From: Acidobacteriota bacterium
Lineage (GTDB): Bacteria > Acidobacteriota > Thermoanaerobaculia > Gp7-AA8
NCBI GenBank assembly: GCA_021781455.1
Contig: JAJXWV010000077.1
Coordinates: forward strand, 111,302 to 175,301
DNA: 64,000 nucleotides
Direction: 5' to 3'
Shown: positions 1,904 to 59,943 of the stretch, one piece after another
Position numbering within the stretch: the first letter of the stretch is position 1
Layout: every line of letters begins with the position of its first letter
Notes under the pieces: generated by a model
Told to the model about the DNA's origin: nothing
Seen by the model: only the letters and a program-made list of their open reading frames with translations
Database searches by the model: none
Translations under genes and position numbers: made by a program

Positions 1904-4135
1904 ATGGCAGCGCAGATCATCGGCGGGACAGCCACGGCGGAGACACCGAGCCCCGACTCACAACCGCTGCGGCGCCCGCTGGTGATCGAGCGCGCCCGCT
2001 TCCCGCTCGTTCTGAAGCTGTTCGTGCTGACCGCCCTGCTGATCATCATCGTCGTGGGAATTGCAGTCGGCATCACCGTCGAGCGCGCCAATGCCATCGC
2101 TCACGCAACGGTGAACACGTCGATTTCGAACGCTGCGAAACTGTTTCGCGATTTCGAGCGGCAGCGGCTGGAACGGCTGACTCTGTCGGCGCAAATCGTC
2201 GGCAACAACATCTCCTTTGTCGCTTACATCCAGAAAGGCCTCAACGCCACCAGCGGCAATGGCTCGCCCACGGCTGCGGCATCGCCGCCGATCGACCTCG
2301 TCAGTATTCTCGACCAGCTCAGCCAGTGGAAGGAATCGCTCGGCAGCGATCTGCTGATCCTGCTCGACGACCAGGGACGGGTCGTGGCCCGGACCGACGA
2401 TCCGGCCGTGACCACGGAGCACAGCGAAGACCTGTACTCGCAGAGCTCCCTCGTGCAGAGAATCGTCGACGACGCCTCCATCGACCACACTCTCGGCGTG
2501 CTCGTCTCACGAGGGCGCATGTACCACGCCACCGTCGTTCCGGTGGCCACCGGTGCCAATCGCGTTCGCGTCGCCTATCTCGTGAACGCCTACGCCATCG
2601 ACGACACCTTCGCGAACCGCATCGCCGAATCGACGAACGCCGGGGTCATGTTCGCAGCCGCGCCGAGCGTGCTGGCCACCGGAATCGTGGCGCGCTCGTC
2701 GAACTCGCCCAGCGTCGGCGTGCAGCAGATGAGCGGCATCGACCAGGTCTTCCGCACCGGCAAGCCGATTCCGCCGTCTGACATCCAGGCGGACCGCAGC
2801 GCCTATGTCCTCACCGGCGAGCCGCTGTTCGCCGGTCACCAGACCCTCGGAGCTGCGGTGTTCGTCCGCTCCCTCGACCGGGAACTGGCGCCGTTCCGCG
2901 AGATCGAACACACCCTGTTCGCCGGAGGGGGCGCCGCTCTCGTCCTGGCACTCATCTTCTCCTGGTTCATCGCCAAGCGCGTCACCCGCCCCATTGAGAA
3001 CCTCGCCACCGTCGCGCAGGAGGTCACGTCCGGCAACTACTCGGTCGAGCCGTCTGTCGACGGCACCGACGAGATCGGAATTCTGGGTCGTTCGTTCGCG
3101 CAGATGATCAGGGCCCTCCGCGACAAAGCCGCGCTCGAGGAGCTCTATCACCAGATGGCCGCCCGCTCCGGCGAACGCGACGCCGGACGCCTCACGCGCG
3201 GCACGATGTCGACCCGGCCGGGGGGAGATGCCGCCACGATGTGGCTCGGCACGACCACGCCACCGCCCTCCATGGCGCCGGCGGCGCCCGGCGAGCTGGG
3301 CGAGGGCGAGATCTTCGCGAACCGGTATCGCATCGAGCAGGTCGTCGGTCGCGGCGGCATGGGCGTCGTCTACAAGGCCTTCGACACACAACTCGAGGAG
3401 ATCGTCGCCATCAAAACGCTGCCCGGCGACGTGATGCACCGTTCCGGCGATGACCTGGAGCGGTTCAAACGCGAGATCCGCGTGGCGCGCCGGATCACCC
3501 ATCGAAACGTCGTCCGCACCTATGACTATGGCGAGGCCGAAGGCGTCTACTTCATCAGCATGGAGTTCGTGCGGGGCTACACGCTGGCCGATTGCCTGGC
3601 CGATGCCCCGGACCACCGCATGCCCCCCCGCGTCGCCCTGGGCACCGCGCGCCAGATCTGCCGCGGACTGCAGGCCGCGCACGAGCAGGGAATCGTGCAC
3701 CGCGACATCAAGCCCCAGAACGTCCTCATCGACCACAAGGGCGAGGTCAAGCTCATGGACTTCGGGATCGCGCGCATTACCGAGTCCGCCGACGCCATGA
3801 CCGCTGCCGGGCTGATCATCGGCACGCCGCACTACATGAGTCCCGAGCAGGTCCAGGGAAATCAACTCGACGCCCGCGCCGACGTGTACTCGATGGGCGT
3901 GCTGCTGTACGAAATGCTCTCGGGCCACAGGCCATTCGAGTCGAGCTCGCTCACCGGAGTGTTGACGGCACATCTCACCCAGGAACCGCCGTCGCTCGAC
4001 ATCAGGGCCGACGTCAACCGCGAGGTCAACACCATCGTCCTGCGCTGCATGCAGAAAGATCGCGACGCCCGCTACGCCGATGCCGGCGAGCTGCTTGCCG
4101 AGCTCGACCGCGTGCAGACAGCAGTGGGGGCCTAG
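1904..4135 (+). CDS. Membrane sensor Ser/Thr protein kinase (HAMP plus Pkn2-type kinase domain)
   Basis: This 743-aa protein has a histidine-kinase-like sensory front end joined to a eukaryotic-type kinase. A first membrane segment lies near residues 35-60, followed by a large extracytoplasmic sensor region (about 60-340, Cache-like), a second membrane segment near 340-360, and a HAMP linker beginning AKRVTRPIENLA. The kinase domain starts near 470: glycine loop GRGGMGVVY, ATP-binding lysine K504 in VAIK, catalytic HRD ending D601, and DFG at 619-621, then GTPHYMSPEQ and a DVYSMGV motif. All key residues are present, so it should be active. It probably phosphorylates cytoplasmic targets in response to a periplasmic signal. 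The cupredoxin directly upstream may be part of the sensing unit (inference). Confidence 0.93.
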   Translation: MAAQIIGGTATAETPSPDSQPLRRPLVIERARFPLVLKLFVLTALLIIIVVGIAVGITVERANAIAHATVNTSISNAAKLFRDFERQRLERLTLSAQIVGNNISFVAYIQKGLNATSGNGSPTAAASPPIDLVSILDQLSQWKESLGSDLLILLDDQGRVVARTDDPAVTTEHSEDLYSQSSLVQRIVDDASIDHTLGVLVSRGRMYHATVVPVATGANRVRVAYLVNAYAIDDTFANRIAESTNAGVMFAAAPSVLATGIVARSSNSPSVGVQQMSGIDQVFRTGKPIPPSDIQADRSAYVLTGEPLFAGHQTLGAAVFVRSLDRELAPFREIEHTLFAGGGAALVLALIFSWFIAKRVTRPIENLATVAQEVTSGNYSVEPSVDGTDEIGILGRSFAQMIRALRDKAALEELYHQMAARSGERDAGRLTRGTMSTRPGGDAATMWLGTTTPPPSMAPAAPGELGEGEIFANRYRIEQVVGRGGMGVVYKAFDTQLEEIVAIKTLPGDVMHRSGDDLERFKREIRVARRITHRNVVRTYDYGEAEGVYFISMEFVRGYTLADCLADAPDHRMPPRVALGTARQICRGLQAAHEQGIVHRDIKPQNVLIDHKGEVKLMDFGIARITESADAMTAAGLIIGTPHYMSPEQVQGNQLDARADVYSMGVLLYEMLSGHRPFESSSLTGVLTAHLTQEPPSLDIRADVNREVNTIVLRCMQKDRDARYADAGELLAELDRVQTAVGA

Positions 4136-4300: not shown

Positions 4301-5488
4301 ATGCGGTCGTTTGTGCTGTCCATCTTCCTCTGTCTTGTCACCGCCTCTCTCATCGCACAATCGTCTTCGCTGCAGTTCCACGGTTTCGTGACTGCCCGTG
4401 GCGTCTACGTGAAGGCGCAACCGTCGTGGACGGAAGCGGGATTCGGACGGTTCGACGTCGGCGCCGTCAGCCCCGAAAGTCACCGTACCGTCAACATCGA
4501 AATTGCGCAGCTGGGCCTCGACTGGACTCCGACGTCGTGGCTGGTCCTGCACGCCGACGGCGTGGGACGGCGGGAGCCGTCCGGCACGAAAGGACGGCGC
4601 GCCGGGCTGGTGCAGGCCTACGCAGATTTCTACAACGACCATTGGCGCCTGCGCCTCGGGAACTTCTGGCTTCCCACCTCGCGCGAGAACACCGGACCGC
4701 TCTGGACCTCTCCCTACACGATCACGTATTCGGCGCTGAACACGTGGATCGGCGAAGAGCTCCGCCCCACCGGCGCCGACCTGCAGTTCTCGCCGAATTT
4801 CTACGTGAGCCTCGGCGCAACGGCCTTTCGCGGGAACGACAGGGCCGGGACCGAGCTCGCTGCGCGCGGCTGGAGCTTCGGCAACCGTCTCACCCTCTAC
4901 GATGAGCCGCTGCCGCTGCCTGCGCCCGGCACCACCACCAGGCCGATTACCCACGATCTCGATCACCACAACGGATACGCCGGGCGAATCCGGCTGCAGC
5001 TTCCGGAACGGGCCCTGCTGCAGATCGCGCACATCGACAACCGCGCCGAGCTCCGGCCTGAGATCGACGGGCAGACTCCCTGGCAGACCCGCTTCAACGT
5101 CATCGGCGCGACGGTCGGCCTGACCAGCCCGACCACCGCCGCCGCGGAGTGGTCATCGGGACGGACCAGCGTGGCGTTCCCGCACGGCATCTTCGGGCTC
5201 GATTTCAAGACCGGGTACGTCCTGCTTTCGCAGAAGAACGGAGCCGACCGATGGACCGTGCGCTTCGACCGCTTCTGGACGAAGAGCCATCTCCCGATGA
5301 GCTACGACTCGAGCTACGAAAACGGCCGTGCCGTGACGGTAGCCTGGCTGCACGACACCAGCGCCCACATGCGCACCGGCGTCGAGTACGCCCGCGTCAA
5401 GGGCGACCGCCAGGGACTCGACGAGCTCGGATTGAATCCCAATACTGGCGGTTCGACGATCACTCTCGAGCTGCGATACGGATTCTGA
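4301..5488 (+). CDS. Porin-like outer-membrane beta-barrel protein
   Basis: The frame is open from 4154, but its first 49 codons read through the heptamer array. The ATG at 4301 begins a clear signal peptide (MRSFVLSIFLCLVTASLIAQ, cleavage probably after IA), giving 395 aa. The mature part alternates short aromatic and polar beta strands, contains many Arg, Trp and Tyr residues, and ends in a strand finishing LELRYGF. The terminal phenylalanine is typical of outer-membrane barrels. It is probably a channel or structural outer-membrane protein; the substrate is unknown. The stop codon TGA is the first part of the following CTGAGTC array. Confidence 0.7.
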   Translation: MRSFVLSIFLCLVTASLIAQSSSLQFHGFVTARGVYVKAQPSWTEAGFGRFDVGAVSPESHRTVNIEIAQLGLDWTPTSWLVLHADGVGRREPSGTKGRRAGLVQAYADFYNDHWRLRLGNFWLPTSRENTGPLWTSPYTITYSALNTWIGEELRPTGADLQFSPNFYVSLGATAFRGNDRAGTELAARGWSFGNRLTLYDEPLPLPAPGTTTRPITHDLDHHNGYAGRIRLQLPERALLQIAHIDNRAELRPEIDGQTPWQTRFNVIGATVGLTSPTTAAAEWSSGRTSVAFPHGIFGLDFKTGYVLLSQKNGADRWTVRFDRFWTKSHLPMSYDSSYENGRAVTVAWLHDTSAHMRTGVEYARVKGDRQGLDELGLNPNTGGSTITLELRYGF

Positions 5489-5577
5489 GTCCTGAGTCCT
5501 GAGTCCTGAGTGAGGTCGATAGAGCGCAGCACTCAGGACTCAGCACTCAGCACTCAGCACTCAGCACTCAGGACTCA
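5485..5577. repeat. Inverted CTGAGTN heptamer array between convergent genes
   Basis: Left arm 5485-5514 has four CTGAGTC/G units. Right arm 5528-5577 has about seven complementary ACTCAGG/ACTCAGC units. The spacer is about 13 nt. The array supplies the stop codons of both neighbours: TGA at 5486-5488 on the plus strand and TGA at 5575-5577 on the minus strand. The RNA of either strand could fold into a stem of roughly 30 bp. Confidence 0.88.
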
Positions 5578-6420
5578 CTTCTTCTTCTGCCGCATCATCC
5601 AGAGCGCGAGACGGGGATCCTGATAAGCGCTGTCCCACGAGTCGTGGCCCACGCCGTTGTATTCGGTATAACGCACGTCGCCGCCGGCCGCCCGCAGTGC
5701 CGCCACCATGCGCCGCGACTGCGCCACCGGCACTTCGTCATCATCGACCGAGTGGAAGGCCCACACCGGGATCTTTCCGATGTCGCGAGCCAGCACGCCA
5801 TACGGATCGGGAGCGAGCAGCACCTGCATCAGGCCGGGCGGCGGGCGGCGCGGAAACGGGTCGTCCGATTGTCGAACCACCTCGCCGGCGATCGGCACCA
5901 GCGCGGCCCAGCGCTGGGGATGGCGCGCGAAGTACCACACTCCCGACCCTCCCATGGAGATTCCGGTCAGGTAGACGCGCGTCCGGTCGCCGTGGAACTC
6001 TTCGATCGAGGCGTCGAGCGCAGCCAGCGCCTGCTGCTCCATCTCGCCGTACCACTCCTGATCCGCCACGCACTGGGGGAGAACCACGACAGCCGGATAT
6101 CGGTCGGGATCACTGCTCAGGACCAGCGGAAGGCCGACCGTGAGCTGGCTGAGATTGTCGTCGCCCCGTTCACCGCTTCCGTGCAGGAAGAGGATCACCG
6201 GCCAATGGTGGATCTTCGAATAGTGCGGCGGAAGCCAGACGCGATAGCGGTAGAAGTGGCCGTTGACGGCCACGCTGCGCTCGAGAAAGCCCTCCGTGGA
6301 CGTGCAGCCGCCGAAGAGAAGCAGCAGGCAGAGAGCGCAGAGGGCAGAGCGCAGAGCGCAGGTGGATGTGGCAGCCAACCTGCGATCTGCGACCTGCCCT
6401 CTGCGCTCTGTTGTTCTCAC
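5575..6420 (-). CDS. Alpha/beta-hydrolase lipoprotein (esterase/peptidase-like)
   Basis: A 281-aa hydrolase of the dienelactone-hydrolase/PHB-depolymerase type. It has an oxyanion region FLHGSGERGDD, nucleophile elbow GISMGG, acid residue within HSVDDDEVP and catalytic His in GVGHDSW. A lipobox-like FGGC precedes the mature part, so it is probably a lipoprotein in the periplasm or outer membrane. The start is uncertain. A GTG at 6420 overlaps the upstream stop as GTGA and suggests coupling, but a TTG further in would give a more usual signal peptide. The signal region is encoded by a GCAGAGC-type heptamer array, giving a repetitive SALCALC-like sequence. The substrate is not predictable. Confidence 0.75.
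   Translation of the reverse strand: MRTTERRGQVADRRLAATSTCALRSALCALCLLLLFGGCTSTEGFLERSVAVNGHFYRYRVWLPPHYSKIHHWPVILFLHGSGERGDDNLSQLTVGLPLVLSSDPDRYPAVVVLPQCVADQEWYGEMEQQALAALDASIEEFHGDRTRVYLTGISMGGSGVWYFARHPQRWAALVPIAGEVVRQSDDPFPRRPPPGLMQVLLAPDPYGVLARDIGKIPVWAFHSVDDDEVPVAQSRRMVAALRAAGGDVRYTEYNGVGHDSWDSAYQDPRLALWMMRQKKK
6326..6410. repeat. Inverted heptamer array (GCAGAGC unit) inside a coding start
   Basis: Arms at 6326-6362 (GCAGAGC, GCAGAGG) and 6379-6410 (CTCTGCG, GATCTGC) are complementary around a 16-nt spacer. The array lies within the 5' end of the lipoprotein gene and encodes part of its signal peptide. Confidence 0.8.
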
Positions 6421-7169
6421 TCGAAGAGATCGTACTCGGGGACCGGCGCCTCGTCCGTCGGGGTCGTCCGCCAGGTCTCGAAGACATGCAGGTCGAGGAG
6501 CACCAGAAAGACCTCGCGCATCATCGCGCCGCGGCTGACCAGTCCGTCGAACAGGCCTCGTTTCGATTCCTTGATGACGTGATTCAGGTTGTGGATGACG
6601 GTGTGCCGCTGGCGATAACCGGAGCGGGAGCAGAAACAGTTGAGCGCCGCTTCGATCTTGTAGCGGGCCTGATACGGCGCCGGCACCATCTCGAAGACCT
6701 CGCGCCGCATGACTCGAATGCCCGACAGCACCGGCCCGCACTGCATCTTCAGGTGCAGAAAGTTGAGGATCTCACCGCGGTTGCGCACGCCGATGTTCAT
6801 GTCGCACTCGTCCTCCACGACCGGGAGGACCAGTGTGGCGATGTGCTCGTCGCTGACGTTGTACATGTCGCCATCGACGAAGAAGAGGACGTCGTTGGCG
6901 GCGTTGTCGACGCCGATGCGCATGGCGTAGCCCTTGCCCGCGTTCTCGCGGAGGGCGATGGTTTTCACGTCGAAGGCCCGGGCGATCTCCACGGTCCGGT
7001 CGGTCGAGCCGTCGCTCACCACGATGACTTCGTCGATCAACGGACTGCGGGTCAGCACACTAAGCACGTCACCTAGTGTCTTCTCCTCGTTATAGGCGGC
7101 GATGATGGCGGTTGTCCCCACGCGTCTCCCGACTTTGGCGAATTCACCAGGACCCGTTGCAACGGGCAC
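6417..7169 (-). CDS. Family 2 glycosyltransferase
   Basis: Transfers a sugar from a nucleotide donor in the cytoplasm. The GT-A fold is clear: TTAIIAAYNEEKTL at the start, VSDGSTDRT for nucleotide binding, and a DxD-type FVDGDM metal site, followed by a region typical of polyprenyl-phosphate or glucosyl-glycerate-type enzymes. No C-terminal membrane helices are obvious. The frame is open to 7289, but the upstream codons cross a CTGAGTG array. A GTG at 7169 is used here; an internal GTG just before GTTAII is another possibility. Acceptor and pathway are unknown. It overlaps the downstream lipoprotein gene by 4 bp. Confidence 0.82.
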   Translation of the reverse strand: MPVATGPGEFAKVGRRVGTTAIIAAYNEEKTLGDVLSVLTRSPLIDEVIVVSDGSTDRTVEIARAFDVKTIALRENAGKGYAMRIGVDNAANDVLFFVDGDMYNVSDEHIATLVLPVVEDECDMNIGVRNRGEILNFLHLKMQCGPVLSGIRVMRREVFEMVPAPYQARYKIEAALNCFCSRSGYRQRHTVIHNLNHVIKESKRGLFDGLVSRGAMMREVFLVLLDLHVFETWRTTPTDEAPVPEYDLFE

Positions 7170-7198
7170 ACCATAGCACACGGGACGAGCACGCCTGA

Positions 7199-7349
7199 CT
7201 GAGTGCTGAGTGCTGAGTGAGCGCACGACATCGTTAGCGGACGCAAGCGTAACCATCTGGTGACATTGGCCGGTCCAGAGTTCAACCACAGAGACGCAGA
7301 GGCACAGAGATTCACAGAGAAAAACTCTGTGTAGCTCGGTGTCTCTGTA
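7199..7349. repeat. Short CTGAGTG array and CACAGAG-type inverted repeat
   Basis: The gap 7170-7533 has about three CTGAGTG units at 7199-7220. At 7285-7349 there is an inverted array with left arm ACCACAGAGACGCAGAGGC and further CACAGAG copies facing CTCTGTGTAGC and GTCTCTGT. A related inverted copy is at 24966-25029. No gene is seen in the rest of the gap. Confidence 0.6.
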
Positions 7350-7533
7350 CTACTAGCTCGAAGTTTCTGCGCGCCACGCGAAGATTTCCTTGCACAAATC
7401 GACAGGACGACCGGTCCCCTCGCCCTGTGCTCTCCGACGAACAACCTGACCAGGTTCCCGTCCGCACGTTCCGCGCAACGGTGACATGTCAGAACCTCCT
7501 TTGACACAATGCGGATGAGCAAGGAACAAGCCT

Positions 7534-34088: not shown

Positions 34089-34200
34089 TTACGAGGTTGC
34101 GCGGTTCCGCGGTTGCGCGGTTGCGCGGTTGCGCGGTGGAGGAGGAAAGATGAGCACCGAACACCGCGGAACCCCGCAACCGCGGAACCGCGTAACCCGG
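34089..34200. repeat. Inverted octamer array (GGTTGCGC/GGTTCCGC unit)
   Basis: Left arm 34089-34138 with six GGTTNCGC units, right arm 34160-34200 with complementary GCGGAACC/GCAACC units, spacer about 21 nt. The unit is 8 bp with one variable position, and it ends at the DUF2203 stop. Confidence 0.85.
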
Positions 34201-39605: not shown

Positions 39606-40928
39606 CTAGATATCCGTCCGCCTGGTCCGCCATCGCATGACCAGGAACATCGGCACACTGAGCGCCAGAAGAGCCAGCGCCCAGATGCTGTCGCGTGGAT
39701 CGGCGGCGATCGCTCCGCCCAGGAAGGCGACGGAAGCGAGCAAGGCAAGCCCGGTCGTGTACGGGTGACCCCAGCTGCGGAACGGCCGCGGTACATCGGG
39801 CTCGCGTCTGCGGAGGACGAACAGCGAAAGGAACGACAGCGCGTAGTTGGCCACGAAGAAGAAGGCCAGTTTGGCGATCACGTTCTCGAAGGTCCCCGTG
39901 ACGATGAAGACCGCCGCCAGCGCGCTGCTGAACAGCAGGGCCACGTCAGGGGTGCCGCCGGCGTTGACCTCGCGGGCGCCGCGCCAGAAGAGCCGGTCCT
40001 GGCTCATCGCATAGAGGACTCGCGGAGCCATCAGGATGCTGGAGTTCACGGCGCTGAAGAGCGCCACCACCATGAGGCTGCGCAGGATCGTGTCGCCGTG
40101 GGGGCCGAACAGGTAACGCGCCACGACGCCGGCCGCGAGCTTGTTCCCGGCCATCGACCCGAGAGGGACGACGCGCAGAAAGGCGACGTTCAGCAGCAGG
40201 TAGATGGCAATCACCATGAGCACGCCGCCGAACATCGAGCGGGGGATGTCGCGACCCGGCTTCTTCACCTCTTCCGAAAAGTAGACCACCGCCGACCAGC
40301 CGTCGTACGTGTAGATCACAGCCTGCAGCGAAAGAACGAATGCCACCAGCAGCGATCCTTCGCGCTCGGTCTCGAACGCGCTGTGCATCGGATTGCGACT
40401 GCCGAGGGAGAAGCAGGCCACGATCAGCACGAGCAACGCGGCCACCTTCAGGAGACTGGTCAGGTCCTGCGTTGCCGCTCCGGAGCGGACCCCGAACCAC
40501 TGGACGAGCGTGAACACCGCCACCACGGCCAGGGCGACGGCCTCGATGATGCGCAGCCTCGGAAAGAGCACGATCGAGTACTCGGCGATGACGATGGCCA
40601 TGGCCGCGGAGGAACCGCAGGTGGAGATCCAGTCGCTCCAGCCGACGATGAAGCCGGGGTAGTCGCCCAGCGCGCGCCGGACGAAGACGTACTGGCCGCC
40701 GGAGCGGGGCGTCATCGCGCCGAGCTCGGCCAGGGCATTCGACCCGAGCAGAGCGTAGAGCCCACCGATGATCCAGATGGAAGCAAAGGCCCAGAAGGTC
40801 GGCAGGTGCTCGGCGATCTCGCCAGGCGTGCGGAGAATTCCGGCGCCGATCGTGTTGCCGATCGTCACGGCCAGACCGAAGGTCACCCCTAAAACGGCGA
40901 TCAGCCTGCCGCCGCGACGCTCGAGCAC
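39606..40928 (-). CDS. Amino acid permease (APC superfamily)
   Basis: A 440-aa integral membrane protein with about 12 hydrophobic segments. The start AVTIGNTIGAGILRTPGEIA matches the unwound first helix that binds the substrate amine, and GSNALAELGAMTPRSGGQYV is the typical second segment. A GTG at 40928 starts it. It probably imports or exchanges an amino acid; specificity unknown. Confidence 0.88.
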   Translation of the reverse strand: MLERRGGRLIAVLGVTFGLAVTIGNTIGAGILRTPGEIAEHLPTFWAFASIWIIGGLYALLGSNALAELGAMTPRSGGQYVFVRRALGDYPGFIVGWSDWISTCGSSAAMAIVIAEYSIVLFPRLRIIEAVALAVVAVFTLVQWFGVRSGAATQDLTSLLKVAALLVLIVACFSLGSRNPMHSAFETEREGSLLVAFVLSLQAVIYTYDGWSAVVYFSEEVKKPGRDIPRSMFGGVLMVIAIYLLLNVAFLRVVPLGSMAGNKLAAGVVARYLFGPHGDTILRSLMVVALFSAVNSSILMAPRVLYAMSQDRLFWRGAREVNAGGTPDVALLFSSALAAVFIVTGTFENVIAKLAFFFVANYALSFLSLFVLRRREPDVPRPFRSWGHPYTTGLALLASVAFLGGAIAADPRDSIWALALLALSVPMFLVMRWRTRRTDI

Positions 40929-48901: not shown

Positions 48902-49037
48902 GCGGGTTCCGAGGTTGCGAGGTTGCGAGGTGTTCGGCCGAGGGATTTGCGCGCAGCCCGCACACCTCGTGACCTCGTGACCTCGTGACCTCGCGACCCC
49001 GCAACCTCGCGACCCCGCAACCCCGCAACCCCGCACC
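48902..49037. repeat. Inverted octamer array (GGTTGCGA/CCTCGTGA unit)
   Basis: Left arm 48902-48931 (GTTGCGAG units) and a longer right arm 48960-49037 (CCTCGTGA, CCTCGCGA, CCCCGCAA units), spacer about 28 nt. Confidence 0.8.
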
Positions 49038-59854: not shown

Positions 59855-59943
59855 GGTTACGCGGTTCCGCGGTTCCGCGGTTCCGCGGTCACGGCGGGGA
59901 TCTCTCCACCGCGCAACCGCGGAACTGCGCAACCCCGCAACCG
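59855..59943. repeat. Inverted octamer array (GGTTCCGC unit)
   Basis: Left arm 59855-59889 has four GGTTCCGC units, right arm 59908-59943 has complementary GCGCAACC/GCGGAACT units, spacer about 18 nt. It begins directly after the murD start codon region. Confidence 0.84.

Follow-up and report, generated by a model that had tools for sequence, protein, structure and literature searches.

We found that the predicted N-terminus of an alpha/beta-hydrolase lipoprotein (hereafter the esterase) in an Acidobacteriota genome is encoded by a hairpin of tandem heptamers, and that relatives carry either heptamer arrays of other units or plain leaders at the same site of the same gene. The reading we favour, with a probability of roughly 0.7 for the whole of it, is that a dispersed heptamer hairpin landed where the start of the esterase overlaps the stop of the gene before it, became the esterase N-terminus and persists there as a signal peptide. 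Translation from the GTG, export and lipidation of this leader are predictions from the sequence. The window is the whole stretch of DNA that was analysed, 64,000 nt of Acidobacteriota bacterium assembly GCA_021781455.1 (contig JAJXWV010000077.1, positions 111,302-175,301, forward strand); its genome is labelled G000.

The esterase gene lies on the minus strand directly behind a glycosyltransferase gene, with zero gap (Table 1). Its reading frame is intact throughout the 281 codons, with about 66% identity to the nearest orthologue. Orthologues of the glycosyltransferase are present in 18/18 family genomes of our collection, with 61-87% identity in the 17 closest named relatives, all metagenome-assembled Acidobacteriota, six of them labelled Thermoanaerobaculia. 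The hydrolase sits directly behind it in 11 of the 18. Two other repeats were seen nearby: a second heptamer hairpin (AGTCCTG/AGTGCTG type) at 5485-5557, separating the 3' end of the esterase from that of its convergent neighbour, and, by eye, a CACAGAG/CTCTGTG-like repeat at about 7286-7350, upstream of the glycosyltransferase, which resembles the array in the esterase leader of G015.

Table 1. Features of the esterase locus, in window positions
Feature	Position	Strand	Basis and remarks
Alpha/beta-hydrolase lipoprotein gene (esterase)	5575..6420	-	281 codons from GTG; Pfam Peptidase_S9, E 9.8e-10, also DLH
Glycosyltransferase family 2 gene, upstream neighbour	6417..7289	-	Listed ORF; true start maybe further downstream; stop TGA 6419-6417
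Putative GTG start of the esterase	6418..6420	-	Overlaps the upstream stop as GTGA; sequence and orthologues
Hairpin 5' arm (mRNA sense)	6378..6409	-	Codes ERRGQVADRR, charged n-region; inverted repeat and codon map
Hairpin loop	6364..6377	-	Codes AATS; in-frame TTG (6378-6376) straddles the arm-loop edge
Hairpin 3' arm (array of the earlier note)	6332..6363	-	Codes TCALRSALCA, beginning of hydrophobic core
Remaining hydrophobic core, CLLLLFGG	6307..6331	-	Outside the inverted repeat; translation and codon map
Putative lipobox Cys codon, residue 39 from GTG	6304..6306	-	Translation; orthologue leaders end at a Cys nearby

An earlier note on this DNA had described the 5' end of the gene, 6326-6420, as a heptamer array. 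The array is real (6332-6361, period 7, 4.3 copies, 91% matches), yet it makes up only half of the feature, being one arm of an inverted repeat whose second arm, inside the same interval, had been overlooked. The two arms are 32 nt each, 91% complementary and 14 nt apart, and the whole hairpin spans 78 bp (26 codons) just downstream of the GTG. On the RNA strand, 6310-6425 folds at -70.4 kcal/mol (z -7.1). Allowing one mismatch or fewer, GCAGAGCGCAGAGC has three matches in the window, where shuffles expect 0.11: two that overlap within the esterase array and one at 40748. The 5' arm is identical at 30 of 32 positions to a copy elsewhere in the same genome (C63:89589; shuffled maximum 22), so the window copy looks like a diverged member of a local GCAGATC-type family. 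The element contains no stop in any of its three frames, and the open frame alone is therefore no evidence. The earlier note had also pointed out that three units make seven codons. Removing three heptamers in silico does keep the frame, shortening the ORF from 281 to 274 codons, but the gain or loss of a single unit breaks it (85 or 72 codons).

Translated on the minus strand from GTG 6420, the N-terminus reads VRTTERRGQVADRRLAATSTCALRSALCALCLLLLFGGC; the 5' arm encodes residues 5-14, the loop 16-19 and the 3' arm 20-29. The layout of a type II signal peptide is present: a net charge of +4 precedes the best 12-residue window (KD 2.82), which is followed by FGGC. A lipobox is expected to carry L, V or I at -3, and the F found there is slightly unusual. 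The Ala/Leu/Cys stretch that the earlier note had the array lead into FGGC does exist, but the strongest hydrophobic run, LCLLLLFGG (residues 30-38), lies beyond the arms, with codon 30 straddling the edge. It is likely that the repeat works as a secretion signal, as had been proposed, with arms that would furnish the n-region but no more than the first part of the hydrophobic core. Good support exists for the companion proposal, by which the coding region has taken in a repeat. We found no in-frame ATG, GTG or TTG between the array and the lipobox Cys; 8 of 11 orthologues, including ones with plain leaders, have a GTG at 4 nt or less from the upstream stop; and arrays of other heptamers occupy the same site of the same gene in three other species.

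Among the 11 orthologues with the same neighbour, the junction carries a heptamer array in four and none in seven, and each array is built from a different unit (GCAGAGC, GCAGAAG, CAGGCAG-like and CTCTGTG-like). The heptamer period was reached in 0/300 shuffles for G000, G007 and G011 and in 1/300 for G015; it was not significant against 300 shuffles in the other seven. Inverted-repeat scores were likewise matched in 0/300 shuffles for G000 and G007, 2/300 for G011 and 3/300 for G015. The G007 array is a perfect GCAGAAG repeat, and its leader reads VTEKAEGRRQKAEGKAKQLSYFCLLLSAFCLFLSC. Plain leaders of 19 or 20 residues, such as VSTARRTLVLLVVLALAAC, are found in G005, G014 and G017, and G001, from the same genus, has a 42-residue leader without a heptamer array. 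The seven also include G008, whose start codon is ambiguous. The hydrophobic leaders of the orthologues end at a Cys near the position of the window Cys. The earlier note had counted unrelated signal peptides in orthologues against its own reading; hydrophobic leaders unrelated to the repeat are indeed present in 7/11, and they fit replacement or extension of a leader, not refutation. On the glycosyltransferase tree, the array label of the esterase changes at least three times (gains or losses), and that of the SBP_bac_1 set four times. The G002 junction holds a palindrome that is not made of heptamers. At two loci where another gene follows the glycosyltransferase (L067 and L074), heptamer hairpins of further units (TTGAATG-like, GACCTTG) lie at the same junction.

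These hairpins belong to a class that is dispersed in the family. The window contains 24 hairpins, 16 of which are tandem heptamers or octamers with differing units. Periodic hairpins number 70 per 744 kb sampled in G000 (49 of period 7), 22 in 398 kb of G011, and 3 and 2 in 200 kb each of G005 and G016; one shuffle of each sampled piece from these four genomes yielded 0. Several units occur per genome, among them AGTNCTG, GATCGCA, AATTGAA and AGCGGGT. Most copies are intergenic, with 48 of 71 in a first sample overlapping no called gene, and many lie close behind a gene: 76 sampled hairpins have a stop codon within 400 nt on their 5' side (either strand), 43 of them at 10 nt or less. Among spacers of at least 60 nt in G000, we saw no preference for spacer type (tandem 32/147, convergent 8/39, divergent 9/45), and with that preference absent a role as terminator is not favoured. 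Whatever the unit, 91 of 97 hairpins sampled from the four genomes have a G-skewed 5' arm, and so constant a polarity suggests that they form by one process. GCAGATC repeats have 46 matches in G000 and 0 in 17 relatives, and GCAGAAG repeats are absent from G000 and reach 98 in G009, 56 in G007 and 41 in G014, with 5 or fewer in four others; copies in different species thus come from different families. Octamer hairpins of the same architecture (GGTTGCGC/GGTTCCGC and related) lie in the window at 34095-34197, 48904-49023 and 59855-59942, and G011 also has 9-mer units (ATGGGACCT).

Capture of such an element as an N-terminus is rare per element. In a first, unbiased look at hairpins of G000 and G011, 56 had a downstream gene and 40 were open through the 3' arm; the only clear N-terminal capture among these 40 was the window gene. 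Further captures were taken from loci chosen for GCAG-type arrays. From 95 arrays with an open frame, 29 rows passed the start-codon rule and 13 were kept (the window, L065, L239, L246, L250, L276, L284, L297, L300, L306, L307, L327 and L332). Rows were dropped if a stop separated the arm from the gene, if no start lay upstream or if a later ATG was plausible, and L277 because its element is internal. With L296, added by eye, this makes 14 genes whose N-terminus, by our reading, lies inside the element and for which a later start is implausible; where L250 truly begins is uncertain. The captures include a phosphodiesterase in G009 (L327, MKAEGRKQKAEVRTTKRISHFSLLPSAFCLLPSFALFFFAC), an HlyD protein in G012 (L332, MKRKRVSGLGTWLLPSVFCLLPLLFLPAC), SBP_bac_1 in G009 (L296), CrtC in G007 (L246) and BatD in G014 (L300). 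Hairpins found at the N-termini of exported proteins range from 75 to 112 nt. We dropped the idea that the repeat unit supplies the start codon; in several captures the ATG overlaps or nearly overlaps the upstream stop (bases read by eye).

All 14 captures precede exported or membrane products, compared with 15 of 52 non-captured neighbours (P 1e-6), with different yardsticks for the two groups: captured genes were judged by family, orthologues or sequence, and non-captured ones by an N-terminal hydropathy rule. The 15/52 among genes that start after an array is near the baseline of 407/1161. With one error among the 14, P becomes 1.9e-5; L306 (no Pfam match) and L276 (an amidohydrolase) were called exported or membrane from sequence alone. 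The ambiguous L260, whose family (SCO1) is usually membrane-anchored, was counted as non-exported within the 52. One further copy is read in frame within a cytosolic enzyme: at L277 (G000, C85:17566-22566, gene 2410-3522, plus strand), two conserved stretches of a tRNA-guanine transglycosylase (Pfam TGT, E 9.2e-137) are separated by the roughly 24 residues that a GCAGATC-type hairpin adds, so tolerance of these elements is not confined to leaders.

The same pattern extends to other exported proteins. Across seven orthologue sets, a significant heptamer array immediately precedes the part coding for the mature protein in 34 of 81 loci: BatD 11/18, CrtC 6/16, SBP_bac_1 6/13, the hydrolase 4/11, the L297 family 4/14, HlyD 2/5 and phosphodiesterase 1/4. 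These denominators stand for 18/18 BatD loci, 16/17 for CrtC, 13/14 for SBP_bac_1 (L351 lacks the N-terminus), 14/18 for the L297 family (the rest being second pieces) and the best matches for HlyD (5/18) and phosphodiesterase (4/18). The L297 count leaves out L360 (array before the start) and L361 (a C-rich tract), which passed the statistic, and the BatD count includes L438 and L440 despite ambiguous starts. Array units across the sets include GCAGAAG, TTGAATG, ATGCAAA, GGTTTCT, GGGTCGA and GAATGCA, and at some loci, such as L421, the array gives the n-region only. Without the seven index cases, 27/74 loci bear arrays vs 35/407 exported genes sampled at large, a comparison in which thresholds differ slightly, the sets were picked for an array-bearing member and shared ancestry is ignored. 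In the G005 SBP_bac_1 orthologue (L346), the leader is directly preceded by a long palindrome of score 33 and span 111 that is not built of heptamers, so other palindromes too may reach leader-coding positions.

What a hairpin spells depends on its unit. GCAGAAG reads as Ala, Glu, Gly, Arg, Gln and Lys and its reverse complement as Leu, Pro, Ser, Ala, Phe and Cys, so a hairpin of this type with its purine arm first tends to spell a charged stretch and then a hydrophobic one. The second half is the more hydrophobic in 91% of 70 open frames of GCAG-type hairpins, compared with 12% of 60 when the arms are swapped, and 5/70 of these frames pass a simple signal rule (arms-swapped 1/60). For period-7 hairpins the effect is moderate (67% of open frames vs 34% arms-swapped). 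Over all 97 sampled hairpins there is no such effect by mean hydropathy (53% vs 55% arms-swapped), and the simple rule is passed by 8/211 open frames vs 6/201 arms-swapped and 6/269 shuffled. On both the hydropathy and the simple-rule results for these 97, we rejected the idea that any heptamer hairpin spells a signal peptide.

The reading that we favour can be set out as follows. A dispersed heptamer hairpin, related to the GCAGATC-type family of G000, would have landed right after the glycosyltransferase stop. An insertion after a stop would usually fall in a spacer; here the hairpin would lie inside the esterase frame because the esterase start overlaps that stop, and the same would hold wherever the next start does so. 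Being free of stops, the 78 bp could become the N-terminus, the purine-rich 5' arm providing a charged n-region and the pyrimidine-rich 3' arm coding Ala, Leu and Cys, which would lead on to the rest of the hydrophobic run and to the Cys. Captures of this kind, involving other heptamer units, would have recurred both in the esterase gene and in genes for further exported proteins of this family. The captured element probably persists since the demands on a signal peptide are few: given a charged start and a hydrophobic middle, almost any sequence is tolerated. We infer that an insertion survives chiefly if the protein downstream is exported and so requires a signal peptide, and that selection would underlie the association with exported products. 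Counting against this reading are the position of the strongest hydrophobic run outside the arms, a frame that would be open by chance in any case, the low share of hairpins that pass the simple signal rule, the rarity of captures, the cytosolic copy in L277, the arms conserved at third codon positions between G007 and G015, and the differing yardsticks behind the association with exported products. A broader proposal, which we regard as tentative and somewhat doubtful, is that tandem-heptamer hairpins are a standing source of signal peptides throughout the lineage, and that the signals of BatD-like, sugar-binding, CrtC-like and esterase proteins have been rebuilt repeatedly from the heptamer family of each species, since reading a purine-rich arm and then its reverse complement tends to give charged residues first and hydrophobic ones after. 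At these junctions the hairpin may in addition be kept for a second function, as a nucleic acid.

The most serious alternative, though in our view an unlikely one, is that the hairpin is a nucleic-acid element at operon junctions, acting in attenuation, processing, transcript stability or coupling, with its codon reading tolerated and the fit to a signal incidental. The very stable fold and the placement of hairpins close behind stop codons agree with such a role, as does the abundance of arrays at some junctions, far above background. So does the L297 family, where the hairpin-coded signal regions of G007 and G015 (L364 and L365) differ at 2/27 third codon positions and the mature parts at 114/272; the arms are near-identical at third positions and the loop has diverged. 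This arm conservation suggests constraint, homogenisation or renewal at the DNA or RNA level, not only on coding. A terminator or operon attenuator should, however, prefer some gene orientation, which these hairpins do not; many relatives lack any hairpin at the orthologous junction; and a pure RNA role does not predict the bias of captures to exported products.

Phase switching, in which slippage by one heptamer would shift the frame and turn a surface protein reversibly on and off as in Neisseria opa, seems improbable to us. Seven is not a multiple of three, a change of one unit breaks the window ORF in silico, and some relatives have perfect arrays, such as the GCAGAAG array of G007; the window array, however, is imperfect (91% matches), imperfect arrays disfavour slippage, and most hairpins are intergenic, with no frame to switch. 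Least probable of all is an artefact of annotation or expression, in which the esterase starts elsewhere or at a rare codon, or is dead, and the leader peptide does not exist: chance alone would be expected to leave the element open and a rare start such as CTG may lie between array and Cys, but the ORF is intact and shares about 66% identity with its nearest orthologue, a GTG at the upstream stop is common to orthologues with plain leaders, and intact genes of several genomes have the same arrangement.

Elements resembling parts of this arrangement are known. Heptamer repeats in Xanthomonas (GGGAATC) and Nostoc (GGGGA(C/T)T) are, according to the accessible part of the report, dispersed, mostly intergenic and nearer the upstream ORF, with 70 and 75 inverted pairs whose G-rich arms converge and with 11% and 7% overlapping ORFs at least partly (PMC4692102). 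In G000, too, tandem heptamers have inverted partners and are dispersed, for the most part between genes; the differences are that one unit per genome is described there, compared with several units and 8- and 9-mers here, that GGGAATC is not among the units listed above, and that no use as a signal peptide is described in that part of the report (PMC4692102). In Geobacter metallireducens, tandem hepta- and octamers of other units, some paired on opposite strands and one heptamer family lying within and between genes, are interpreted in the accessible text as regulator sites or RNA elements (PMC2700814). Palindromic elements of Rickettsia, about 150 bp long, lie in frame in protein-coding metabolic genes and are said to encode a conserved peptide (PMC10969869, as far as accessible). 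The window gene and L277 likewise have a palindrome in frame inside a coding gene; the elements here are shorter, made of tandem heptamers and placed at the N-termini of exported proteins. The opa genes of Neisseria have CTCTT repeats in the leader-coding region, where unit changes shift the frame, a switch that has been shown (PMC3960869, PMC5354566). They share with the esterase a short tandem repeat coded into a leader and a frame shift on unit change, in silico in our case; there the repeat is a single array of pentamers, whereas here it is a heptamer hairpin of a dispersed family, in a predicted leader (PMC3960869, PMC5354566). Inverted heptamer arrays, paired hepta- and octamers, in-frame palindromes and a tandem repeat in a leader were thus known already. 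No title or abstract found in the open-access literature described heptamer hairpins as signal peptides, and their putative use as such is apparently unreported.

The origin of new signal peptides is rarely seen, and here one gene has both plain leaders and leaders built from differing hairpins. With these in related genomes, the origin, tolerance and replacement of an export signal become traceable and testable. For purine-rich units there is a simple rule, that an inverted repeat at the start codon tends to read charged, then hydrophobic. There is also a warning, as gene callers that avoid repetitive starts may lose the leader and label such proteins cytosolic.

REP and REPIN elements are dispersed, mostly intergenic palindromes associated with Y1 (RAYT-type) transposases, and Y1_Tnp was found in 17/18 family genomes. 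We rejected a REPIN origin of the heptamer hairpins: heptamer or octamer hairpins occur in 2/20 Y1 transposase neighbourhoods, none nearer than about 0.95 kb, and, unlike REPINs, they do not flank the transposase genes. Non-heptamer palindromes adjoin several of these genes; at L206, L209 and L217, the palindromes flanking the Y1-family transposase gene are REP-like and separate from the heptamer hairpins.
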